A stretch of 64,000 bases of DNA from Nitrospira sp. Lineage in GTDB: Bacteria > Nitrospirota > Nitrospiria > Nitrospirales > Nitrospiraceae. The notes under the pieces are model-generated. The model saw only the letters and a list, made by a program, of their open reading frames with translations. It did not search any database and was not told where the DNA came from. The stretch spans positions 620,001 through 684,000 of the forward strand of contig JACOEK010000002.1 in assembly GCA_024998595.1 (NCBI GenBank). Direction: 5' to 3'. Shown piece after piece: positions 35,894 through 48,579 of the stretch (the first letter of the stretch is position 1; the number at the start of each line of letters is the position of its first letter). The translations under genes were made by a program, and so were the position numbers.

Positions 35894-36212
35894 GGTGTAC
35901 ATCCTGGGTGTTCACGCCCCTCATGTTTCAGGGCAATACTTTACATACCATGCGAATCCGATGTGCTCAAGACCACAGTCATTTTTTGCTCATATCCACC
36001 AATCAGCCCTGATTGGTCACACGAAAGCAGCGGCCCACTCGCACAGCAGACTCGAGTCTTAAGTAGTTGAGAACTTTCCAATACCTCGGACACCTCAAGG
36101 TCAGGCACCCTTAACCGATAAAGAATTGGCAGGAAAGATCGCGTCAACCTGCGACAGGTTATACCTTGCGTGCGGCAAGGGTTGTCACGTCCATTTTCGG
36201 GAGACCCAGGTG
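35894..36212. promoter_or_regulatory. Regulatory gap upstream of the receiver-Hpt genes
   Basis: There is no gene in this 319-nt gap. It holds two perfect inverted repeats: CCAATCA/TGATTGG with a 4-nt loop (35999-36016) and the 12-nt palindrome AGACTCGAGTCT (36048-36059). GTTATACC near 36158 could be a -10 region. These may be operator sites for the downstream signalling genes. Confidence 0.4.
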
Positions 36213-36674
36213 ATGGTGCCACATTCAGAAAGCGAACAAGCACGGGGCGAGGCTCTGAGCCCTTCGCAACCGTCTCCGCTGAACATCCTCCTCGTAGAGG
36301 ATATGGAAGACAATCGAGTCTTGGTCACCCTCTTACTGAAAGCCCTGCCATATCGGCTGGATCTGGCTGAAAACGGGGCGGCAGGCGTCGAAAAATTTCG
36401 ATCCCGACAGTACGACCTGCTTCTGATGGATATTCACATGCCGGTCATGGACGGCTACGAGGCGATCCGTATCATGAGGCAATGGGAAGAAGAGCAGAAG
36501 CGCGGCGCGACGCCGATCATCGCCCTGACCGGCAATACCCTTGAAGAAGACATCAAGAAGGCTCAGGCCGCCGGATTCACTGCCCACCTGACCAAACCGC
36601 TCAAGAAGCAAACGTTGCTGGAGGCTATTCGACGGTATGCCGTCCCCTCCTCCGACAAGGAGTGCGCCGCATGA
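36213..36674 (+). CDS. Receiver-domain response regulator
   Basis: The 153-residue protein has a 20-residue Ser-rich lead, then a complete CheY-like receiver: acidic pocket VEDMED, phospho-acceptor D73 in LLLMDIHMPVMDGYEAI, switch T in ALTGNT, and K in HLTKPL. There is no output domain. The next gene starts within its stop (ATGA), and that gene is an Hpt protein, which suggests a phosphorelay. The start at 36213 is chosen for the closest site GGGAG. Confidence 0.88.
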   Translation: MVPHSESEQARGEALSPSQPSPLNILLVEDMEDNRVLVTLLLKALPYRLDLAENGAAGVEKFRSRQYDLLLMDIHMPVMDGYEAIRIMRQWEEEQKRGATPIIALTGNTLEEDIKKAQAAGFTAHLTKPLKKQTLLEAIRRYAVPSSDKECAA

Positions 36675-37006
36675 GCGACCTGCCATCCGCTCCGTCAGAC
36701 TGTGGTGTCGGACCGGTCGTGGTCTTCGTGGACTCTGCGTTCGAGCCAATGATTCCAAAATTCATGGCGAACCGGAACAAAGAAGTCGCGACCATGACGG
36801 ACGCCATCGCGCAAAAGGACTTCGACACTATCAAACAAGTGGCCCATGGGATGAAGGGTGTGAGCGGCAGTTATGGCTTTCATGACATGACCACCATCGC
36901 CGGTCGAGTGGAGCAGGCTGCCAAGGTCGCCGATGAAGTGTCGATCCGACAGGACTTGGTCGCGCTGGCGTCATACCTTGCGCGAGTTGAGATCACGTAT
37001 GAGTAA
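36671..37006 (+). CDS. Histidine phosphotransfer (Hpt) domain protein
   Basis: This 111-residue protein holds one Hpt domain with phospho-accepting H59 in VAHGMKGVSGSYGFHDM. The helices before and after are typical (FMANRNKEVATMTDAIAQKD and IAGRVEQAAKVADEV). It starts at ATG 36671, overlapping the receiver gene by 4 nt, with AAGGAG ahead. It probably shuttles phosphate between an unseen hybrid kinase and receivers. Confidence 0.85.
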   Translation: MSDLPSAPSDCGVGPVVVFVDSAFEPMIPKFMANRNKEVATMTDAIAQKDFDTIKQVAHGMKGVSGSYGFHDMTTIAGRVEQAAKVADEVSIRQDLVALASYLARVEITYE

Positions 37007-37226
37007 CGGGGCTCGCATTGCTCGCGCGGCACATGATTTGACGAAGGCAGAGGAAAGCTGCTGCTGTCCGGCGTTCACAGCAGGCCGAGCCTCATCCTGC
37101 GAGAATGAAAATGAAGAAGTATGCGTGCGTTTGTAGAGACTCGTGTTACAAAAGAATGAGAGCTTCCGCGCCAAGACAATCTGAACGTTCAACCCCCTCA
37201 CTCTTCGGTACCTAAGGAGCGCGTGT

Positions 37227-37622
37227 ATGGAAAGCCCCGACAATCCCAAACTCAGGGTTCTCATGGTTGAAGATGAGGAAGACACGGCGAGCCTCTTAAA
37301 GTTTCTTCTCGAGCGGGCAAATTATCAGGTCGTGCATGCCAAAGACGGCCGGCAGGCGCAGGAACTCATTACGACCATTTCTCCTCCGGACATCGTGTTG
37401 CTCGACGTGATGCTGCCATTCTTGAGCGGACTGCAAGTGCTCACCTTGATCAGAAAGCGTGAGGGCTGGAAAAAAGTGCCGATCGTCATGTTAACGGCCG
37501 ACGGGAGCGAGCATGACATCAAGCGCGCGTTGGAGAGCGGCGCCAACGACTACATGATCAAGCCGTTCAACCCCCGTGAATTGACCAGTCGGCTGAAGCG
37601 GTTCGTCGGTCAGGCGGCCTGA
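37227..37622 (+). CDS. Stand-alone receiver protein (CheY-like)
   Basis: This 131-residue single receiver domain has VEDEEDT acidic residues, D60 in VLLDVMLPF, the MLTADG switch and MIKPF lysine. AAGGAG lies 7 nt upstream. It is separated from the Hpt gene by 220 nt with no gene. The HEAT protein gene follows 21 nt later, so it may be the signal input for the neighbouring polysaccharide locus. Confidence 0.9.
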   Translation: MESPDNPKLRVLMVEDEEDTASLLKFLLERANYQVVHAKDGRQAQELITTISPPDIVLLDVMLPFLSGLQVLTLIRKREGWKKVPIVMLTADGSEHDIKRALESGANDYMIKPFNPRELTSRLKRFVGQAA

Positions 37623-37643
37623 GCGACCGTCAAGAGGAGTTAC

Positions 37644-38735
37644 GTGCTGGGGCTCGACCAGTCAGACCTGACCCTCCGCATCGGCACCATTGCCGCCATA
37701 TCCATCTACTCCGCCGTCTTTCTGCTCCTGTTGGGCATTCTCCTCCTTCGATACATACGCAACAAGAAGGACCGACGGCGGCTCGCTGTCACCGAGATCT
37801 GGCGGCCACTACTCGCCGAGTGTGTCGTCGAGGTGCCTGCCACGCTTCCTCCGCTCACCACTCGAGACCACCTCGTTCTGCTCTATCTCTGGAATCATTG
37901 TTACGAGTCCATTCGTGGAGACGCCCGTGCGAATTTAATAGAGCTCGCCCGACGAACGGGTAGCGATCAGTTCGCGAAGGAACTCCTGCACGCCAGGCTG
38001 CTCCGCCGCCGCTTGCTCGCGATTGTGACACTGGGGCACCTCCAGGAACGATCGATCTGGAACGAACTCGCCGGGATGCTGCAAGCCGACAACGCGTTCC
38101 TCTCGTTGGTCGCAGCCAAGGCCCTGCTCCATATCGACGCACAAGGAGCGGTGCCACTCATCATCCCGGTGATCAGCCAACGCAAGGACTGGTCCCCGCT
38201 GAAAGTCGTTGCGATATTCGAACCGGCTGGCGCAGACATCGCCGCCGAGGCCATTGCCGAAGCCGCCTGCCTGGCCAGCCCGGAAATCGGCTCGCGGCTG
38301 ATTCGTCACCTCGCCGCCACTCAAAGCCAGCACGCATTGCCGCCGCTGAGGGCGCTGTTGCAGAACGGGTCCCCGTCGGATGACCTGTTGGCAGCCTGCC
38401 TGTTTCTGTTCGGAGAATGCAGCGATCCCAGGGATGTGGCCACCATTCGGAAACACCTCTCCCATCCAACCTGGTATGTACGGCTTCAAGCAGCCTCGGC
38501 ATTGGGCAAGGTGGGAGTTGAGGAAGATGAAGCACGATTCATCGCGCTTCTGGACGATGAGCATTGGTGGGTGCGCTACCGGGCGGCCGAAGCACTGGCG
38601 AATCTCCCCTGGATGACCGCCGAACGGCTCACCCAAGTGCACAACGCGCTCACCACCGTCGAATCGCAAGAGCACTTGCTTCCGTTCATGGCTCACTCGA
38701 ACGCGAAGACTCACCCTACGGCTCGCGTAGCCTAA
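37644..38735 (+). CDS. Membrane-anchored HEAT-repeat protein
   Basis: The 363-residue protein begins with a GTG (AGGAG 4 nt upstream). It has one membrane helix (IGTIAAISIYSAVFLLLLGILLLRY), a basic stop-transfer, and then alpha-helical HEAT repeats (LSHPTWYVRLQAASALGKVGVEEDEARFIALLDDEHWWVRYRAAEALANL is the clearest pair). HEAT repeats mediate protein binding, so it could link the receiver to the inner-membrane synthase. It is convergent with the polysaccharide operon. Confidence 0.82.
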   Translation: MLGLDQSDLTLRIGTIAAISIYSAVFLLLLGILLLRYIRNKKDRRRLAVTEIWRPLLAECVVEVPATLPPLTTRDHLVLLYLWNHCYESIRGDARANLIELARRTGSDQFAKELLHARLLRRRLLAIVTLGHLQERSIWNELAGMLQADNAFLSLVAAKALLHIDAQGAVPLIIPVISQRKDWSPLKVVAIFEPAGADIAAEAIAEAACLASPEIGSRLIRHLAATQSQHALPPLRALLQNGSPSDDLLAACLFLFGECSDPRDVATIRKHLSHPTWYVRLQAASALGKVGVEEDEARFIALLDDEHWWVRYRAAEALANLPWMTAERLTQVHNALTTVESQEHLLPFMAHSNAKTHPTARVA

Positions 38736-38802: not shown

Positions 38803-40725
38803 TTACGAACGGCGAGCGGCCGTTGAAATCGAGGAACGCGGCGTAAACGAGACGGTATGAGTGCCCCGTAGTTCCGGGAATGTCACCACCGAACCATGTT
38901 GTTCCACTCCCCGTAGAGAGGAGCTGGAGCGCGCAATTTCCCATCCCTCCGGCATGTCGAGTGTCAAACCCGCTAGAGAGGTGGGAACCCTCAACGTCAC
39001 CCGCATGGCCGTCGCATCGCGCGCGACATCGACTTCCACCCGATTGCGTGCCGCCCACCATCGACCGAATTCTCCCACCGAGCCAAACCAGGCATAGGGA
39101 CGCACGCCCTCGACGAACCCTTTTTCGAAAGCGAGCTTATGATCGAGAATATTCGGATGGATGAGCACCACCACGGAGCCCCCATACCGGCTGATACGCT
39201 TCGCCACTTCCAGAGCTTGCGGGAGACGATCCCCCATCTTCGGCAAGGCTTCATCTTCGATAGTCACGGGAAACTCGAAGACGTCGACCTCACTATCAAT
39301 GAGACGATCGTAATTCAGTTGATACGGCAAATGGGTCAGCGAGTTATTGGCCGTCGCCGTTGAACTGTATCGATACCCGGTCGCCAGGAGCGCTTGCGGA
39401 AGGCCGAAGGGGTTGGACAATTCGCCGGGCCTGAAGGACACGATCGTCTGCCCTGAAAAGTGATCGATCAGGAACTTACTCACGCGCAATTCGCCCAGGA
39501 CGCTCGCATTGTAGGCCGTGGTCCGATCTTTCACGAAGGGGGCATAGGAAGGATACGATTCACGGCCGCTCCCCATGGGAAATTGATTGAACACCCGTGA
39601 ATGGCCGATCGTATGGCTTCCCAACTCCATCCCCAGTTCCGCCAGTCGTTTCACATAGCGCACACCCTCATCGTTAAAAAAGATATCGTCGTTAAAATCG
39701 CGAATGTATTTCACCTGGATAAAATAGGTCCCCACCAACCCCTGACTCTTCTCATACTCTGCATAATCGACCGCGTTTTTGATGGACTGCGTGAAATCGA
39801 CATCATGCGTCATCATCACGGACAACGATTTTCCGAAGGGCACCGTACCCACGGTCACCGCTTCGTCCTGCGCCGTGCGATACATCGATTTGATGAGCCG
39901 CAACCAGACATCAAGGGTCGGATCGAACTCATTGTCGAACGTCTTGACCAGTTCCTCGCCTCGATTGTTGTATCCCTTCAGTAGCAGGAAGCCGAGATCT
40001 AACCCGATGGCATAGGCGCGGCCACGCCCGTGAACGACCTGCGTGATGGCAGCGGTTCCGTCCTCGAAGCGCGCGAGAGGGGCGGAAGCTTCGGTGTAGC
40101 CGTAGGTCCCCATCACTTCGATACCCTTGTCCCGAATGCCGACCCGCAGCTGTTGCTCCCGGGGATCAGTCAGGCCCGCCAGCAGAGGATCGGTCTGGGC
40201 CAAGGTCACACCGTAACGTTGGCGCGAGGCAATGGCATCACGAAACCCGAAGACCTGATTCAATCCGCCACCAAGGACTTGCACCCCGATCAGCGTGCCG
40301 CCTGTCTTCGGAAATTCCGCCAGCGCTTGCAGCTCCTCCGGTTTCAATACCTTCCCGGATATCATGGGGTAGACCAGCACGACCTTGTGCGCCAAGGCTT
40401 CATTGACATGACGAGTGATCCGAAAGGGAATGCCCATGGATTTCAAACCATGCGCCAACCCGAGCCAGGATGAGTCCGGATCGGTCAAGAGAATCGCCAA
40501 CCGGCTCGTTGAACCCTGCTCGTAGGTTGTCCACACAGCCGGTACGCGATCGGGCACCACGGTCGTGTCGTCCGGACCCGACACCCCGGCGAACCGGTAA
40601 AAATCTTTCTCCGGGATCTCGACATGCTCGGCGGAGGGAGAACCGACGAGAATCCGAATGCCGATCACGAGGGACACAAACAGCAAGGCCATACCTGACA
40701 GGCGGAGGAGTGTAGATCGTTGCAT
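38803..40725 (-). CDS. Membrane-anchored polysaccharide deacetylase-like protein
   Basis: This 640-residue protein has one N-terminal membrane helix. A roughly 250-residue domain of unknown type (with ALAHKVVLVYPMISGKVLKPEEL) precedes a NodB-type deacetylase domain. Metal and catalytic motifs are MMTHDVD (306-310), SHTIGH (370-375), FRPGELSNP (431-439) and LIHPN (521-525). It may deacetylate a nascent exopolysaccharide, as PgaB's N-terminal domain does. It follows the TPR/barrel gene by 4 nt. Confidence 0.85.
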   Translation of the reverse strand: MQRSTLLRLSGMALLFVSLVIGIRILVGSPSAEHVEIPEKDFYRFAGVSGPDDTTVVPDRVPAVWTTYEQGSTSRLAILLTDPDSSWLGLAHGLKSMGIPFRITRHVNEALAHKVVLVYPMISGKVLKPEELQALAEFPKTGGTLIGVQVLGGGLNQVFGFRDAIASRQRYGVTLAQTDPLLAGLTDPREQQLRVGIRDKGIEVMGTYGYTEASAPLARFEDGTAAITQVVHGRGRAYAIGLDLGFLLLKGYNNRGEELVKTFDNEFDPTLDVWLRLIKSMYRTAQDEAVTVGTVPFGKSLSVMMTHDVDFTQSIKNAVDYAEYEKSQGLVGTYFIQVKYIRDFNDDIFFNDEGVRYVKRLAELGMELGSHTIGHSRVFNQFPMGSGRESYPSYAPFVKDRTTAYNASVLGELRVSKFLIDHFSGQTIVSFRPGELSNPFGLPQALLATGYRYSSTATANNSLTHLPYQLNYDRLIDSEVDVFEFPVTIEDEALPKMGDRLPQALEVAKRISRYGGSVVVLIHPNILDHKLAFEKGFVEGVRPYAWFGSVGEFGRWWAARNRVEVDVARDATAMRVTLRVPTSLAGLTLDMPEGWEIARSSSSLRGVEQHGSVVTFPELRGTHTVSFTPRSSISTAARRS

Positions 40726-40729
40726 GGGC

Positions 40730-43099
40730 CTACCAATGATAGATCAGGTTAAAGTTGCCGCCCCGGCGGACGTAGAGAAATCCCCGGTCTTCGTAATATC
40801 CGGAGGTTTCGGCGGAGAATCGTTCGTTGATCGGGAAGGTGACGCCGCCCTGAATCGTGCGGCTCCCCACGCGGGTGAAGTCCTGGGCCGCCACGATGCG
40901 TTCGCCTGACGTGCCGAACGAGCCGGAGGCGAAGAGCTGCAGCCGATCCGCCGGCCGCCAGGTCAGTTGGGATGCCAATGTAACCGCCCCCGTATTCGGA
41001 ATCATGTAGACCTTCTCCGTCAGCCATAAATTGAAGGGGAGAAAGATCGTGAGCCCAGGCATCAGCAGATCAATGTCGTCCTGCTTGTAATTCAACCGCC
41101 GGTAGCCGAACGAGACCTCGAAAGGCGCCAGTGACGCATGCAACCCGCCCAGGCCTTGCGCCACTTCCCCGACAAAGGAGTAGTTCGGCGAAAAATGCGG
41201 ATTGACCGTGGCTTGCCCCGCGATATAGCCCCAGGCTCTCGACCACAAGGGACTGTAGAGTTCGGCTGACAGCGGCGTGTCGTGAAATCCGAAACGATTG
41301 ATCGGCTCAACGCGCAGCACCAGCGTTTGGTTGCCCAACGGCTTGGCCAGTTCGAACAGGAGGTCACGTTCATCCGGTTGATTCTTGGTATAGGTATAAT
41401 GGCCGTAGCCGATCTTGGCATAGTCGCGATAAGGAAGACGCAACCCGGCGAGCCCTTGCCCGACCGCAGCCCGCGGCGACACGAGTAATTCTGATTTCAC
41501 GGCTTGAACCTGTTGCTCAATGGCTGGGTCATGCGTGTCGGCCAGCAGGGCTTCATACCGCTGCAGCGCCTCGGACCGATCACCCCGCCAATGCGCGACC
41601 TCGGCGAGCCCACGACGAGCCTCGATTTGCCTCGGCTCTGCTTGCAACACCTCCCCGTATAACCGTCCCGCCTCATCGAATTGTTTTTGCCACGACAGGA
41701 CCTGCGCCAGCGCGATGCGAATGTCCTGATCGTCGGGGTGGCGCGCCAGCACCTGACGATAGAGGGTCGTCGCTTCCGCGTGAGCCCCCTGCCAGGAGAG
41801 GACACGCGCCAAGGCACTGCGGATCTCATCGTTGTCGGGATGCAGGCGCAAGACTTCGCGATACACGCCTTCGGCTTCAGGATATTGTTTGGCCACCTCG
41901 AATCTCGTGGCCCGCTCGACGGCGGCCCCGATGGCTCGCATATCTGGTTCATGCAAGGCGGGAGATGAGGCAGGTAGCTCGGCAGCGGGAGACGAGGTCG
42001 CCCTCAATTCCGACTGAATGGTCTTCAGCTGCGCGTCGAGCTCTGGATCGTGAGTCTCGGCCAACAGCACCTCATAGCGCTTGACTGCTTCCGCGTGATT
42101 TCCCTGCCAATAAGCTAAATCAGCGAGGCCCCGTCGCGCCTCGACGTGAGTCGGGTCTATTTGGAGCGCTTCCTGGTATAAGCGACCGGCTTCCTCGAAT
42201 TGCTTCTGCCACGACAAGACTTGTCCCAGCGCCACGCGAATATCCTGATCCTGGGGATGGCGCGCCAGAATCTCTCGATACAGCGTCGTGGCTTCCGTGT
42301 GAACGCCTTGCCAGGAGAGGATCCGGGCCAACGCGGCGCGGACTTCGTCATTCGCGGGCGACCGCTCCAGTTCCTCACGATAGACGGTCACTGCATCGTC
42401 ATACTGACGCATCGTTTCCAATCGACGTCCACGCTCCAACGCCTGTATGGCGTGAGAGGCCATCGGGTCGTCCCCCTGAGCAGAAGACGTTCCGGACGGA
42501 AGACTGGGAATGGCCGGTGAACTGGAGACGGACTTCAATCCCTGCAGACGCGCCGCAACTTCCGCGTCACCGGTCGCCGCCACGACTCGCTCATAGTAGG
42601 AAATGGCTTGTTCCTGATAGCCGCTCCACAACAGCACGTTCCCCAACCCGGCGAGTGCCTCGACATGGTCCGGTTCGTCGCGGAGCACCTGCTCGTACTC
42701 TGCTCGGGCCTGATCGAACTGTTTCTGCCACGACAGGACTTGAGCAAGACCGACCCGGATATCGTGATCGAGAGGGTGGCGGGTCAGGAGATCCCGATAG
42801 CCGGCAGCGGCGGCGTCCCATTCGCCTTGCCAGGACAGAAGCTTGGCCACTGACGCTCGCACGTCGTCCTGGTCGGGTTTGGCCAGGAGGTATTGCCGGT
42901 AGGCCGCGATGGCCTCTTCGTACCGCTTCTCCTCCTCCAAGGCTCTGGCTTGCTGGAGAATCTGGCGCGGCGATGAATCCGGCGCCATGGCGGCAATCAT
43001 CGTGGCAGGCGCAGAGAACCAGCCCACGGCGAGCGCGATCACCGCCAGCAGACCGGCTACTGATGTTCGTCGATTATTCCAGCTGAGGAGATCGTTCAT
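40730..43099 (-). CDS. TPR-rich outer-membrane beta-barrel protein (PgaA/YaiO-like)
   Basis: The 789-residue protein has a signal peptide, then three TPR modules of about 150 residues each, then a C-terminal barrel of about 200 residues ending in FNLIYHW, a typical outer-membrane aromatic end. The barrel part (PYRDYAKIGYGHYTYTKNQPDERDLL onward) resembles the YaiO family. The length and TPR-plus-barrel order recall PgaA (poly-GlcNAc export). ATG 43099 is chosen because it lies just before the signal peptide; an upstream ATG at 43159 would overlap the preceding gene. Confidence 0.82.
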   Translation of the reverse strand: MNDLLSWNNRRTSVAGLLAVIALAVGWFSAPATMIAAMAPDSSPRQILQQARALEEEKRYEEAIAAYRQYLLAKPDQDDVRASVAKLLSWQGEWDAAAAGYRDLLTRHPLDHDIRVGLAQVLSWQKQFDQARAEYEQVLRDEPDHVEALAGLGNVLLWSGYQEQAISYYERVVAATGDAEVAARLQGLKSVSSSPAIPSLPSGTSSAQGDDPMASHAIQALERGRRLETMRQYDDAVTVYREELERSPANDEVRAALARILSWQGVHTEATTLYREILARHPQDQDIRVALGQVLSWQKQFEEAGRLYQEALQIDPTHVEARRGLADLAYWQGNHAEAVKRYEVLLAETHDPELDAQLKTIQSELRATSSPAAELPASSPALHEPDMRAIGAAVERATRFEVAKQYPEAEGVYREVLRLHPDNDEIRSALARVLSWQGAHAEATTLYRQVLARHPDDQDIRIALAQVLSWQKQFDEAGRLYGEVLQAEPRQIEARRGLAEVAHWRGDRSEALQRYEALLADTHDPAIEQQVQAVKSELLVSPRAAVGQGLAGLRLPYRDYAKIGYGHYTYTKNQPDERDLLFELAKPLGNQTLVLRVEPINRFGFHDTPLSAELYSPLWSRAWGYIAGQATVNPHFSPNYSFVGEVAQGLGGLHASLAPFEVSFGYRRLNYKQDDIDLLMPGLTIFLPFNLWLTEKVYMIPNTGAVTLASQLTWRPADRLQLFASGSFGTSGERIVAAQDFTRVGSRTIQGGVTFPINERFSAETSGYYEDRGFLYVRRGGNFNLIYHW
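41487..42967 (-). repeat. Three tandem TPR modules inside the barrel gene
   Basis: Modules at about 42530-42967, 42005-42460 and 41487-41945 share order and long identities. Each has QVLSWQKQF, ARxLSWQG and a final ExxLAxTxD-type end. Modules 2 and 3 are clearly similar at DNA level too (for example around 41680-41820 and 42195-42335), so they look recently duplicated. Confidence 0.8.
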
Positions 43100-43133
43100 C
43101 CGTGACGACCCTGCTCTCCCGACATGCACGTTC

Positions 43134-44813
43134 CTATTCGGAGAGGGCTCGGAATCCATCGAGATCGTGAATAATCACCCCGGAAAAACTACGATGCGCC
43201 GTTGTGTCCAGGATCTGCTTGATCGCCTTGGACACCTCGGCACGGGAACGTCCGGCAAAGGTCAAACGTTCGGGCCTGACGGTGAACCGGTGGTGGATGC
43301 GGAACCATTCTCCGGACACCGTCGGCCCGTCAGTCTCAGAGATCGGCCTCCATCGCAGAAGGCGGTGTTCACGATCCAGGAGAGCATCGGCGCGGTCAGG
43401 ACGAGGGTCGCGTCGCAATACGATATGCTGCTCAAGCGGCAACAGGATCGTTTCCACAGCCAACCACACCGGCTTTTCAATCACATCGCCATATCTCAGG
43501 ATATCTTCGGCAATGTCCTGCACTTCATCGAGATCGGTGCGGTAACTCATGACCGCCACTTCATCGGCTCGATCCATGACGGCATAGGCCAAGGGCCGTC
43601 CACCAACGGTCGGTGTTGCGAGCCAGAAGGGAATCACCATGGACAGTCTGGCACGACCTTGAATGGCTTCCTTCACGATCTCGATCGTGCTCAGGTACCG
43701 ACGGAGTTGCGCATCATCATCAAGAAATCCCGGCAGAAGATACGGCTCTATATCGAGCTGTATGCCGGATAACGCACCAGGCCGCACGAGCTGAAGCAGT
43801 CTCCCTACCTTATCGGCCAAAAGCTGAGGTTCCTGAATGGCTTCGGGATACCCGTCCAACGCCAGCGCATCGATCCCGGCGTCCTTCACCCAGGCCAAGA
43901 CTCGCGCATATTCTCGCCAAAGGGCCTCTTCATCATTGAGTGACGGCATTTGGATCAGCACCCGGGAACAGCCTTGGATGCGACAGGTGGTCAACATCGT
44001 CTGTGAGTCCTGTATCGCCGCGCGGTAGTTCCACACCCAGAACCCTGTGCCGACAGGTCGCCTCCTCACCGGTTCACGTTGCGCCACCGTCATCTGCTCG
44101 AATTGGATCTGTCCCCCGTGTCCCTCAGTGGACACCACGAGAGCCGTCACATAGCGAAGGTCTACCCCGCGACCGACTTCTTTGAGGGGAATGGTCAGAT
44201 CGAACGTGCCGCTCACCGTTGTCAGCGGGTGATTGTGCTCACGCTGGTGTCCGGCCACATCTTCTATCGCCACTACCACCTGGCCGGTTGCCATGCCACG
44301 AAGCCTCAGCATCTGGTAGGACATGAGATCCACCGACCTTCCGGCCGGACGCAGCTCGATACGCTGACCACAACGCGTCGCCTCCTGGGCGGTCCATTTC
44401 AACTCGAGACGGGAATCGGTTCGTACCGCCTCTCCACGACAAGGCCCGAAGACCTGAGCTGCCCCTACCCCTGAGCGCAGTTCAAGAATAGGCACAAACG
44501 GTCGATAAGAAAGAGGAGCCGTAGTCGGCGGAGGTCCGCTGAACGCCACGGTTGGGTCGGTACGCCGCCCGACATAGGTGAGCTCGATCTCATGGACCGT
44601 GGAAGGGATGGGCGAGGACAGGACAATGTCGTCCGCCTGCGCAATAGGGAGCCAGGCGATGGGGCCGACAGCAGCAGCAAGCAACACCTTCACGAAGAGA
44701 AGCCGACCCGCGACCTGGTTGCAGGCAGACCCGACGGACTTCCCGGAAATCCTGCTTCGAGCGACACCCCCGTTGACGGAGACGCATTGATCGATGTGGT
44801 TAGAGACGCTCAT
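43134..44813 (-). CDS. Exported TIM-barrel glycoside hydrolase-like protein
   Basis: This 559-residue exported protein has a signal near residues 38-60 (LLFVKVLLAAAVGPIAWLPIAQA). A beta-rich first half (carbohydrate-binding-like) precedes a C-terminal TIM-barrel-like half: GFWVWNYRAAI, LALDGYPEAI, GIQLDIEPYLLPGF (DxE like GH18/GH153), VAVMSYRTDLDEV. It could be the hydrolase half of a split PgaB. The start ATG 44813 is uncertain because it overlaps the divergent synthase gene by 20 nt; no better start was found. Confidence 0.7.
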   Translation of the reverse strand: MSVSNHIDQCVSVNGGVARSRISGKSVGSACNQVAGRLLFVKVLLAAAVGPIAWLPIAQADDIVLSSPIPSTVHEIELTYVGRRTDPTVAFSGPPPTTAPLSYRPFVPILELRSGVGAAQVFGPCRGEAVRTDSRLELKWTAQEATRCGQRIELRPAGRSVDLMSYQMLRLRGMATGQVVVAIEDVAGHQREHNHPLTTVSGTFDLTIPLKEVGRGVDLRYVTALVVSTEGHGGQIQFEQMTVAQREPVRRRPVGTGFWVWNYRAAIQDSQTMLTTCRIQGCSRVLIQMPSLNDEEALWREYARVLAWVKDAGIDALALDGYPEAIQEPQLLADKVGRLLQLVRPGALSGIQLDIEPYLLPGFLDDDAQLRRYLSTIEIVKEAIQGRARLSMVIPFWLATPTVGGRPLAYAVMDRADEVAVMSYRTDLDEVQDIAEDILRYGDVIEKPVWLAVETILLPLEQHIVLRRDPRPDRADALLDREHRLLRWRPISETDGPTVSGEWFRIHHRFTVRPERLTFAGRSRAEVSKAIKQILDTTAHRSFSGVIIHDLDGFRALSE

Positions 44814-46200
44814 TTCAACATCTGAGTGGCTATTCCTGGTCTACTTTCTCGGCCTGACCGCCGGATACTTGATGCTGGACCTCATCGCCATCGTGCACTT
44901 GCGGCAATACCTGCAGGAGCGTGTGCTCGAAAGTCTGCCGCACAGTTACACCGGCTTCGAACCGCAGATCAGCATCCTGGTGCCTGCCTATAACGAGGCC
45001 GCCACCATCGCCGGTTCCATTCGGTCGCTGCTGCAACTCAGCTATTCGGAATATGAAATCGTGGTGATCAACGATGGATCAAAGGATGCCACGATCGATG
45101 TGCTCCGCAAAGAATTTGATCTGTTTCCGTTTCCCGAAGCCTGTAACACGCAACTGCCGACGGCGGAGATCAGGGCGATCTATCACTCGTCCCTCCATGC
45201 CAACCTGCGCGTGATCGACAAGGAGAACGGCGGCAAGGCCGACTCCTTGAACGCCGGCATCAATCTGTCGCTGTATCCTCTGTTCTGCTGCATCGATGCA
45301 GACTCCATTCTGCAGCCCGACAGTCTGCGGCGGGCCGTACAACCGTTTCTGGATGACCATCGCACCGTCGCTAGCGGGGGGACCGTGCGCATCGCTAACG
45401 GCTGCCGCGTCGAAAACGGCTTCCTGACCAAGATTGGTTTACCCGCCAATCCGCTGGCGCTGTTCCAGATCGTGGAATACCTCCGCGCTTTTCTCTTCGG
45501 ACGGCTGGGTTGGTCGCCGATGAATGCCATGCTGATCATTTCCGGGGCATTCGGCATTTTCCGGAAAGAAGCGGTCGTCACCGTGGGGGGCTATCGATCG
45601 GATACGATCGGGGAAGACATGGAACTGGTCGTGCGCCTGCATCGGCATCTGCGGTTGGGCAACAAACCGTATCGCATTACGTTCGTCCCCGACTCCGTCT
45701 GTTGGACCGAGGCGCCGGAAGACCTGCGCACGCTGAAAAATCAGCGTATTCGCTGGCAGCGAGGATTGTGCGAGAGCCTGACAAAGAACCTCGATCTCCT
45801 GTTTCATCCTCAAGGCGGCACGATTGGATGGCTGGCGTTTCCCTTCATGGCCGTCTTTGAGTGGATCGGACCGGCGATTGAGGTCTTCGGCTACTGCTTC
45901 CTGATTCTCAGCTTTGTCCTGGGATCCGTCTCGGTGCAGGCGTGGCTGATCCTGCTGGTTGCGGCGATCGGACTCGGCGTGTTGCTGTCGGTGAGTGCGC
46001 TCTTATTGGAAGAGATGTCGTTCCACGTCTACCCCAATCAGCGCGACGTGCTGAAACTGTTGCTCGCGGCCATCCTGGAAAATTTCGGATTCCGCCAGCT
46101 GAATTCCGTGTGGAAATTGATCGGCTTGTATCGTTGGATACGTGGAAAGAAAGCGACGTGGGGAACGATGACGAGAACTGCCTCCTGGCAGGCGAGATAA
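44794..46200 (+). CDS. Membrane glycosyltransferase family 2 (PgaC/BcsA-type synthase)
   Basis: The 468-residue processive synthase has an N-terminal membrane helix. The GT2 domain has LVPAYNEA, NDGS (93-96), CIDADSI (166-172), GEDMEL (273-278) and the QRIRW acceptor motif (317-321). Two to three C-terminal membrane helices follow. Length and motifs fit PgaC-like N-acetylglucosamine or hyaluronan-type synthases. No PilZ domain and no PgaD-like gene are seen beside it. Confidence 0.9.
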   Translation: MWLETLISTSEWLFLVYFLGLTAGYLMLDLIAIVHLRQYLQERVLESLPHSYTGFEPQISILVPAYNEAATIAGSIRSLLQLSYSEYEIVVINDGSKDATIDVLRKEFDLFPFPEACNTQLPTAEIRAIYHSSLHANLRVIDKENGGKADSLNAGINLSLYPLFCCIDADSILQPDSLRRAVQPFLDDHRTVASGGTVRIANGCRVENGFLTKIGLPANPLALFQIVEYLRAFLFGRLGWSPMNAMLIISGAFGIFRKEAVVTVGGYRSDTIGEDMELVVRLHRHLRLGNKPYRITFVPDSVCWTEAPEDLRTLKNQRIRWQRGLCESLTKNLDLLFHPQGGTIGWLAFPFMAVFEWIGPAIEVFGYCFLILSFVLGSVSVQAWLILLVAAIGLGVLLSVSALLLEEMSFHVYPNQRDVLKLLLAAILENFGFRQLNSVWKLIGLYRWIRGKKATWGTMTRTASWQAR

Positions 46201-46222: not shown

Positions 46223-47380
46223 TCATGAGGTGAAGCGTTCGATCGCCTGACTGGCTCGCTCCAGATCTCCATCCGTTTTCGCCATACAAAAGCGCATAAA
46301 GCGACTCCCCTCCGTCCCGTCGAAGAACGCCTCGCCCGGCACACCCGCCACACCGGTCTTGTCCAGCAGATACAGGGCGCGTTCGCGACTGGTCTTCCCG
46401 GGGAGTCGGGATACGTCCGCCAACACGTAATAGGCGCCCTGCGGCACGGCTGGAGGCAACCCCGCTTTTGCCAAGGCCAGGCAGAAGCGATCCCGCTTCT
46501 GTTGATGCTCGAGGGCCAGCTCCTTGTAAAATGACGCACCGAGCTCACGAATGCCGGCAGCCACCCCATACTGTAACGGCGTCGGGGCGCAGACATACAA
46601 CACATCACTCATGGCGCCGATGGCTTTCGCCCATGAGGCCTCCGCCACACTGTAGCCGATACGCCAGCCGGTGATGCTGAAAGTTTTGGAGTATCCGCCG
46701 ATGGTAATGGTCCGGTCGGCCATGCCAGGCAGTGAGGCCATGCTGACATGTTCTCGCCCGTCGAACACAAAATACTCATAGATCTCGTCCGTGATCACCA
46801 GCAGGTCGTGGCGGCAGGCCATCTCGGCAATCTGCTCCAATTCACGTCGTGTGAAAACTTTGCCGGATGGATTGCCCGGAGTGTTGACCACGATGGCCTT
46901 GGTCTTGGACGTAATAGCCTGTTCCAACCCTTTCACATCCATCGTCCAATCCGGCGGCCGCATCGTCACATAGCGGGGGACGCCCTCCACGGCGAGGATC
47001 GCCTGGACGTGATAGGCGTAGAACGGCTCAAATAGAATCACTTCGTCGCCCGGATTAAGCAGCGCCATGCAGGTGGCCTGGAACGATCCGGTCGCGCCGG
47101 CACTCACGGTAATATTGATCTCCGGATCCGCAGTGATGCGATTGTAGGCGGCTAACTTGCCGGCGATCGCCTGCCGCAGTTCCGCAATACCGTCAAAACG
47201 AGCATAGATGTTATGCCCCTGCGCCATCGCTTCTTGCGCGCCCCGCACCACCACCGGAGGCACAGGGGTGTCGCAGACTCCCTGGGACATATTGATCCCG
47301 TTGACCTTCGCACAGGCGAGGGTCATCGCACGGATATCGGATTGGGCCAGCCGGGCGGTACGATCACTCTTCTTCATCAC
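46223..47380 (-). CDS. PLP-dependent aminotransferase, class I/II
   Basis: This 385-residue fold-type I enzyme has PLP-binding Lys in GGYSKTFSITGWRIGY and the NTPGNPSGKVF segment that contacts the cofactor. SAGATGSFQATCMALLNPGDEVILFEPFYAYH is the substrate-side helix and strand. It resembles aspartate or aromatic aminotransferases; specificity is not decided. A 13-nt palindrome lies 15 nt before its ATG. It is convergent with the synthase. Confidence 0.9.
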   Translation of the reverse strand: MMKKSDRTARLAQSDIRAMTLACAKVNGINMSQGVCDTPVPPVVVRGAQEAMAQGHNIYARFDGIAELRQAIAGKLAAYNRITADPEINITVSAGATGSFQATCMALLNPGDEVILFEPFYAYHVQAILAVEGVPRYVTMRPPDWTMDVKGLEQAITSKTKAIVVNTPGNPSGKVFTRRELEQIAEMACRHDLLVITDEIYEYFVFDGREHVSMASLPGMADRTITIGGYSKTFSITGWRIGYSVAEASWAKAIGAMSDVLYVCAPTPLQYGVAAGIRELGASFYKELALEHQQKRDRFCLALAKAGLPPAVPQGAYYVLADVSRLPGKTSRERALYLLDKTGVAGVPGEAFFDGTEGSRFMRFCMAKTDGDLERASQAIERFTS

Positions 47381-47395
47381 ATCCTCAATGGCTAC

Positions 47396-47408
47396 ATCAC
47401 CTGGTGAT
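47396..47408. promoter_or_regulatory. Palindrome upstream of the aminotransferase
   Basis: ATCACC-T-GGTGAT is a perfect 6+1+6 palindrome located just before the ribosome site of the aminotransferase gene. It may be an operator. It could also be chance. Confidence 0.3.
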
Positions 47409-47540
47409 TTGATGACCCTGGCGGGTCTTGGCGCTTAAGGCAGATGTCCCTACCCCGTTCCGGCGGAAAATGCAACCGGCGAAAGGACCGTCATTGATTC
47501 AGGGAGAAACCGCCAGCATCCCGATCCACCATGCTTCGGG

Positions 47541-48158
47541 TCATTCCGGAGCCTGCGGCAGGGACCATAGTGGATGGCTGTCTTGTCGACGCGTCATCAC
47601 ACGCGAGGGAAGGCGGCTGGTTCCGGCACGAAAGCGATCATAGTGGCCAAGCACTCGATCGACGTAGAGTTGGGTCGCAGGGAGAGCCGGCGCGCCGATG
47701 GCCTGCCGCACGCGCGCTTCACCGAGATGGTAGGCCGCCAGGGCTAGCGACACATCTCCGCCGAACCGGTCTAACAGCCCACGAAGCAAGGCTGCGCCCG
47801 CACGAATGTTGTCCTTCGGATCGAATGGATCGAGCACATGGAACGCGGCCGCCGTCAGCGGCATCAGCTGCATGAGACCGATTGCGCCTTTCGAGGACAC
47901 GGCGTTCGAATTGAAATTCGATTCGACTTTGATGATCGCTTGCAGGAGAGCAGGGTCAAGGGCGTATTGCTTGGCGTAGGTTGCTATCAGCGAGGCAATC
48001 GGCTCGTGGGAGGGCCGACGCACAGCGTCGTTCATCACCGGGTCGAATGCGACCCTGCTGGCCGGAGGCATGATGGCAGTCAGGCACGCCGCCACCGCTA
48101 AGGGGAAGAGCGCACGGGCCACTCGACCCCAGCGAATATTCCATTCAGGCTGTTGCAT
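47541..48158 (-). CDS. Lytic transglycosylase (SLT family)
   Basis: The 205-residue protein has an N-terminal signal or anchor (RALFPLAVAACLTAIMP) and an SLT domain. ALLQAIIKVESNFNSNAVSSKGAIGLMQLMP contains the catalytic Glu. AALLRGLLDRFGGDVSLALAAYHLGEARV is the second conserved block. It cleaves peptidoglycan with 1,6-anhydro products. The start is uncertain (48158 or 48209). The longer form overlaps the preceding lipoprotein gene. Confidence 0.86.
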   Translation of the reverse strand: MQQPEWNIRWGRVARALFPLAVAACLTAIMPPASRVAFDPVMNDAVRRPSHEPIASLIATYAKQYALDPALLQAIIKVESNFNSNAVSSKGAIGLMQLMPLTAAAFHVLDPFDPKDNIRAGAALLRGLLDRFGGDVSLALAAYHLGEARVRQAIGAPALPATQLYVDRVLGHYDRFRAGTSRLPSRVMTRRQDSHPLWSLPQAPE

Positions 48159-48192
48159 AGTAGGTACGGGAGCGACCGAGACCTGACTGTTC

Positions 48193-48579
48193 CTAGCGGC
48201 CATCCTCATCGAGGCTTCTGATGAGCACGGCGCGGCCGTGCCGATCGAACCACGATTGAATACGATCGCCTACATGGGCCGGTCGGTCGATTCTGGTGTT
48301 CTCGTCGTGAGGAATGCGGTGCTCCTGCCCCCGGACATCTCGGACCAGGTAGGCGCCCCCCTCGACGGCTTGCACCTGGCCGACCAGGGATGCGGCAGGC
48401 TGCTCACCGGAAGAGACGGCAGATCGGCTTTGCGCGCCTAACGTCCCGGAGACGATCCCCATGCCGAGGTCTTCCTGAGAAGAATGTCCCTGCAGCGCCG
48501 ACTGTGCGCAGCCGGTCACACTGATCACCAAGGGAAGGACAAGCATCACACGGCGAAAACCAGCGAGCAAACGCATCAT
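48193..48579 (-). CDS. Small lipoprotein of unknown function
   Basis: This 128-residue protein has a lipobox (LVISVTGC) and a C-terminal domain with LVGQVQAVEGGAYLVRDVRGQEHRIPHDENTRID and GDRIQSWFDRHGRAVLIRSL, an OB-like beta fold. GGAGG precedes the ATG. It is upstream of the lytic transglycosylase with a small or no overlap and is likely cotranscribed. Confidence 0.7.
   Translation of the reverse strand: MMRLLAGFRRVMLVLPLVISVTGCAQSALQGHSSQEDLGMGIVSGTLGAQSRSAVSSGEQPAASLVGQVQAVEGGAYLVRDVRGQEHRIPHDENTRIDRPAHVGDRIQSWFDRHGRAVLIRSLDEDGR

Follow-up and report, generated by a model that had tools for sequence, protein, structure and literature searches.

The window, the 64,000-nucleotide stretch analysed here, derives from a Nitrospira genome of 4.23 Mb and contains a four-gene span (38803-46200) that a preliminary description had read as a possible exopolysaccharide system built of Pga-like parts. 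All four genes are intact and have the coordinates assigned to them there; the system extends further, to position 36213, and comprises the following genes.

36213..36674, + strand: receiver protein 1, a stand-alone response regulator (PF00072, 82 bits); the reading frame opens at 36126, with the likely ATG at 36213
36671..37006, + strand: Hpt phosphotransfer protein with an HxxKG histidine motif (PF01627, 40 bits against a cut-off of 24.6)
37227..37622, + strand: receiver protein 2, without an output domain (PF00072, 97.9 bits)
37644..38735, + strand: HEAT-repeat protein with one N-terminal membrane segment (HEAT_2, 58.8 bits)
38803..40725, - strand: predicted membrane-anchored NodB-type polysaccharide deacetylase (invariant catalytic motifs)
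40730..43159, - strand: predicted outer-membrane exporter, TPR plus YaiO-family barrel (TIGR04390, PF19413)
43134..44813, - strand: secreted TIM-barrel putative glycoside hydrolase (AlphaFold2 model, invariant residues); start codon uncertain
44794..46200, + strand: predicted GT2 processive polysaccharide synthase of a HEAT-paired clade (motifs, tree, profiles)

The receiver-Hpt-receiver-HEAT genes (36213-38735, + strand) are convergent to the four-gene span, and the ATG of the Hpt gene overlaps the stop codon of the first receiver gene. A stand-alone receiver gene lies 16-27 bp before the HEAT gene in most Nitrospiraceae loci, and receivers or Hpt proteins recur in other phyla beside the HEAT-partnered GT2 cassette (a GT2 of the clade described below encoded with a HEAT protein, a definition that the window locus fits). 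These genes are therefore part of the same system, which is larger than the span first noted, and the receiver/HEAT module that the preliminary description had mentioned as a possible control has proved to belong to it. An aminotransferase and a transglycosylase at 46223-48209 were rejected as parts of the system, being missing from the wider loci. The open reading frames of the GT2 (+) and TIM-barrel (-) genes overlap by 20 bp at their starts on opposite strands (44794-44813), an arrangement kept in most of the genus. As the first ~35 residues of the TIM-barrel protein are poorly modelled, its true start may lie further in, leaving space for divergent promoters.

Within the Nitrospirota, ~17 close Nitrospira genomes preserve the gene order of the block receiver-Hpt-receiver-HEAT / deacetylase-YaiO-TIM / GT2, and the same block or subsets of it occur in 29 further, independently found records, most of them with the four-gene order; many of these records come from the same genomes as the ~17, and contig ends account for some of the gaps. 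The grouping is therefore not due to chance. The preliminary description had named a lack of conserved linkage as a ground for refutation; linkage was examined and found to be conserved. By its genes, the assignment of the locus to exopolysaccharide synthesis and export is supported. In a profile search, 52 of 396 Nitrospirota genomes matched the TIM-barrel protein and 69 the GT2. Counted from the match lists, the family Nitrospiraceae includes 45 genomes with both, three with the GT2 only and two with the TIM-barrel protein only, so that the two co-occur in 45 of the 48 GT2-positive genomes sampled; seven genomes of the same genus, rated 99-100% complete, match neither profile. Three loci (L043, L135, and L136) lack the deacetylase gene and others have it in broken form, while the GT2, TIM, YaiO, and HEAT genes remain, indicating that deacetylation is not essential to the system, and a short contig (L044/L073) keeps only the GT2, TIM, HEAT, and receiver genes. 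The broken deacetylase frames (assemblies L055, L072, and L074), like the single in-frame stops in the TIM genes of L064 (1618-3165) and L043 (8575-10260), reflect either decay or assembly error.

The GT2 has membrane segments at both ends and carries the active-site motifs DGS, DAD, ED, and QRIRW, nearly all invariant, the last of which had been recognized in the preliminary description. Its best-scoring curated family is PgaC/IcaA (TIGR03937), at 151 bits against a cut-off of 422 that no protein of the genome exceeds; the GT2 and PgaC of E. coli share 26% identity and an SG motif. In a tree of 27 rows, where BcsA and YaiP form long branches and serve as outgroups only, all 18 HEAT-paired GT2s fall on one side of a branch (99/99 as drawn) and the five PgaC/IcaA sequences form a separate group (100/100). 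The GT2 thus belongs to a clade separate from PgaC/IcaA.

Outside the rearranged layout of the Nitrospiraceae, in which the HEAT gene usually lies 3.5-6 kb from the GT2 gene within the same block (1.7 kb in L073), a HEAT gene adjoins the GT2 gene, with a gap of at most 40 bp or an overlap, in 14 of 14 loci: those of Mesorhizobium, Devosia, Erythrobacter, Legionella, Emticicia, Bacteroides, Deinococcus, Planococcus, Paenibacillus, Halosolutus, and four Nitrospirota. The sample spans five bacterial phyla and one haloarchaeon, its cross-phylum members coming from plasmids only. Mesorhizobium ciceri WSM1271 and Emticicia oligotrophica, both cultured, carry the cassette but no deacetylase gene with it. 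Eight of these records (Mesorhizobium, Devosia, Erythrobacter, Deinococcus, Halosolutus, Planococcus, Bacteroides, and Legionella) carry a HEAT label directly upstream of the GT2 in their own annotation. In Paenibacillus, Emticicia, G016, G047, G288, and isolate ACE_NIT13 the HEAT protein beside the GT2 was recognized by a custom profile, trained partly on examined loci but on none of these six. No HEAT match was obtained in eight control loci (Pga/Ica/Yai/Nfr/Bcs), four of them short. The N-terminal membrane segment of the HEAT protein is also found in relatives, and from this pairing of genes the HEAT protein is proposed to be a partner subunit of the synthase.

Ahead of the cassette, receivers are encoded in Mesorhizobium, Erythrobacter, Emticicia, Halosolutus, Devosia, and G288; in Mesorhizobium and Devosia the GT2 gene is followed by an Hpt gene. 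In most relatives a receiver lies upstream of the Hpt domain, often within a longer, hybrid-kinase-sized frame. No receivers were found near the HEAT-GT2 pair in the Deinococcus, Planococcus, Bacteroides, Legionella, and Paenibacillus loci, and phosphorelay control therefore cannot be universal. Synthesis of PNAG is controlled by c-di-GMP and PgaD (PMC7112194). Given that receivers and Hpt proteins recur beside the cassette and that no PilZ domain was found in the window's GT2, it is proposed that a phosphorelay acting via the HEAT protein would replace control of this c-di-GMP/PgaD type.

The exporter comprises three TPR blocks of ~173 amino acids, 45-63% identical to one another in direct alignment, followed by a barrel at ~580-809 that belongs to the YaiO family (TIGR04390, 73.4 bits against a cut-off of 32; PF19413, 35.9 against 23.9). 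Against PgaA (TIGR03939) it scores 91 bits, short of the cut-off of 366, with the best stretch within the TPRs; since the barrel is of the YaiO family and the PgaA score stems from the TPRs only, identification of the exporter as PgaA was ruled out. In many relatives the exporter is ~200 residues shorter than the three-block protein of the window.

The earlier statement that deacetylase and hydrolase are separate proteins, each with extra domains, is confirmed. The TIM-barrel protein (AlphaFold2 mean pLDDT 81) has an N-terminal beta-rich region (~60-245) and a barrel at ~250-559, and is without a Pfam family match. Its model resembles many TIM hydrolases: the best VIA-align rows listed are those of a GH18-type chitinase (Z 18.6, rmsd 4.5, 252 aligned) and of PgaB C-terminal domains (Z 17.2, rmsd 4.0 A, 242 residues), both tied or nearly tied with GH5, GH1, and GH18 rows; PelA, GH114, GH135, and GH166 do not appear among the 50 structural matches listed, which excludes nothing. 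Profile comparison with PgaB gives no signal (hhalign probability ~1%), and the PgaB glycoside-hydrolase domain GHL13 (PF14883/GH153) has no match in the whole genome, the E. coli control being positive. The fold is near that of GH18/GH153, the relationship considered in the preliminary description, but about equally near that of GH5 and GH1, and by sequence the protein is not GHL13/GH153. Among proteins of known structure, only 10yv from Cellulomonas fimi, named a putative GH97 by its depositors, is a clear match in sequence. Residues W259, W261, G350, D354, E356, P357, M422, Y424, and R425 are invariant in 17 sequences of the family, down to 22% identity, and include the GH18-like patterns G350-x-Q-x-D354-x-E356 and MxY. 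We take D354-x-E356 and M-x-Y to occupy the positions of the GH18 DxE and MxY, which makes E356 the likely acid.

Homologues of the TIM-barrel protein are encoded in the HEAT-GT2 loci of Devosia (Pseudomonadota), Paenibacillus (Bacillota), and G288, a member of another Nitrospirota family, with no deacetylase of this kind alongside. In isolate ACE_NIT13 (L072, 6264-9473), a single 1070-codon open frame covers both GT2 and TIM-barrel protein, and the TIM signal peptide can still be made out within it; the case comes from one metagenome assembly, and the joint frame could be an assembly or start-site effect. A distant relative in L045 (8966-10873), with a weak CBM30-like N-terminal match, adjoins a sodium:solute symporter and a GH3 gene with no GT2 nearby, a possible catabolic use of the same fold. 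TIM-family domains also occur in proteins of ~770-790 amino acids near a different GT2 clade (L133, 7713-11407; L137, 3443-9546), the L133 protein also carrying an OEP outer-membrane efflux domain; possibly these represent another exporter-hydrolase fusion system.

The deacetylase consists of a membrane anchor, an amidotransferase-like domain (~70-290), a region with NodB-type motifs, and a C-terminal beta domain. The catalytic residues D308/D310, H371/H375, R432, and H523 are invariant, H523 in all rows that reach that position. Against PF01522 (CE4/NodB) the protein scores 18.9 bits, under the gathering score of 23.1, whereas a close relative (L138) passes with 26.5 bits. The model is poor in the catalytic part (mean pLDDT 54), so that only the N-terminal domain was judged by fold; it matches the GH42 middle domain, ThuA, and Agd3. 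Profile comparison with PgaB gives no signal. Agd3 has a three-domain plan of amidotransferase-like, esterase, and beta-sandwich domains, and Agd3-type CE18 enzymes have >120 residues between motifs 1 and 2 (PMC7229062). The deacetylase resembles Agd3 more than PgaB in its domain plan, although D308 and H371 are only 63 residues apart and sequence similarity to Agd3 is not detectable.

Could the locus be a diverged PNAG operon, in which PgaB was split into two genes, PgaD was lost, and the product is still poly-beta-1,6-GlcNAc? Among curated families the GT2 scores best against PgaC/IcaA, PgaB domains are among the top matches listed for the TIM-barrel model, and TPR plus barrel, deacetylase, and hydrolase mirror the roles of Pga proteins. 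Yet the GT2 lies far under the PgaC cut-off and outside the PgaC clade, the barrel is YaiO with similarity to PgaA in the TPRs only, neither the TIM-barrel nor the NodB-type protein gives anything in profile comparison with PgaB, and the HEAT partner was not seen in the Pga/Ica controls. The lack of PgaD noted earlier was borne out, PF13994 having no match in the whole genome (E. coli control positive), as PF14883 has none. Such a history is improbable; descent from Pga by splitting is not supported by the clade of the GT2, the YaiO barrel, the non-GH153 sequence of the hydrolase, or the Agd3-like plan of the deacetylase. The earlier mapping of four genes onto Pga parts accordingly stands for their roles, and "split Pga" fits those roles, not the ancestry.

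Also unlikely, if a better candidate, is a Pel- or galactosaminogalactan-related HexNAc polymer with a deacetylase of Agd3/PelA type and a TIM hydrolase resembling galactosaminidases. The Agd3 plan of the deacetylase, with 6nwz in both fold lists, speaks for it, as does the location of bacterial Agd3 relatives with a glycosyltransferase and a GH114 hydrolase, but the motif spacing is not that of CE18, the deacetylase is optional, and no PelF/PelG-type genes were identified adjoining the locus. Finally, the GT2 may decorate an existing surface glycan or lipid, with TIM-barrel and NodB-type proteins as turnover enzymes and no exported polymer. In favour of this, there are HEAT-GT2 pairs that lack an outer-membrane exporter, in monoderms and in a haloarchaeon (no YaiO/TPR partner was found in the two Bacillota or the haloarchaeon loci); against it, processive synthases typically combine QxxRW and ED motifs with a membrane segment at either end, as this GT2 does, and a YaiO/TPR partner is consistent in diderms, being present in most of their HEAT-GT2 loci, so that mere decoration seems very doubtful.

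The reading preferred here, at a probability of roughly 0.62, is a HEAT-partnered machine for the synthase-dependent secretion of an exopolysaccharide, distinct from Pga, in which the HEAT protein would be read by a phosphorelay. The inner-membrane GT2 would polymerise a nucleotide sugar, probably a UDP-HexNAc, and pass the chain across the membrane. The HEAT protein, anchored by its single membrane segment so that the repeats lie in the cytosol, would contact the synthase as an obligate partner in the position of PgaD/IcaD. A kinase/Hpt phosphorelay would end on the stand-alone receiver encoded beside it, whose phosphorylation state would switch the synthase through the HEAT protein. In the periplasm the anchored NodB-type enzyme may partly deacetylate the polymer and the secreted TIM-barrel hydrolase may cut or trim it, before it exits via the TPR-YaiO outer-membrane protein.

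As to the polymer, the haloarchaeal plasmid L120 (4232-9556) encodes a receiver, HEAT protein, GT2, sugar nucleotidyltransferase, and GlmS in a row, which hints that the cassette crosses into archaea. Because GlmS and the nucleotidyltransferase follow HEAT-GT2 there, and because the SG motif is common with PgaC, a HexNAc-based polymer is probable, to judge from gene context and motif. Since a nucleotide-sugar dehydrogenase and epimerases are encoded in the Legionella locus, the polymer could also be neutral or contain uronic acid.

Nitrospira forms dense clusters in sewage flocs and biofilms, and a literature search found no paper naming such a matrix polymer system for it; if the reading is correct, the locus offers a direct genetic handle on the Nitrospira matrix. 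No paper on a cassette of YaiO, HEAT, and glycosyltransferase was found either, which is not proof of absence, and a census of EPS operons makes no mention of HEAT (PMC7112194); the HEAT-partnered family is widespread and apparently undescribed. It may, tentatively, amount to one more of the major designs by which bacteria and archaea secrete polysaccharides in a synthase-dependent way, with an obligate HEAT membrane subunit, often a phosphorelay switching synthesis on and off in place of c-di-GMP, and an uncharacterised glycoside-hydrolase family attached. Both the control protein and the signal of this synthase family would then differ from the c-di-GMP textbook case, and the TIM-barrel family without a Pfam entry could become a source of biofilm-degrading enzyme.

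Among known systems, E. coli YaiO/YaiP/YaiS likewise encodes a YaiO-family barrel with a GT2 and a putative deacetylase, but YaiP is distant from the Nitrospira GT2 (51 bits), and the HEAT protein, the TPR on YaiO, and the TIM hydrolase, all present in the Nitrospira locus, are lacking. E. coli NfrA/NfrB, which makes the NGR glycan, is similar in pairing a signal-controlled GT2 synthase with an outer-membrane partner; as described in two reports (PMC8669469, PMC8669472), its control is by c-di-GMP, and the Nfr control locus has no HEAT partner. Agd3 (CE18/CBM87) and the Nitrospira deacetylase have amidotransferase-like, esterase, and C-terminal beta domains in common, differing in the membrane anchor of the latter, in motif spacing, and in sequence. 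With the PNAG systems pgaABCD/icaADBC the locus shares an inner-membrane GT2 with a membrane partner, a TPR-barrel exporter, a NodB deacetylase, and a TIM hydrolase of similar fold. It differs from them in the GT2 clade, in a HEAT protein in place of PgaD/IcaD, in the YaiO barrel, in a deacetylase and a hydrolase that are two proteins and belong to other families, and in the phosphorelay genes that it contains.
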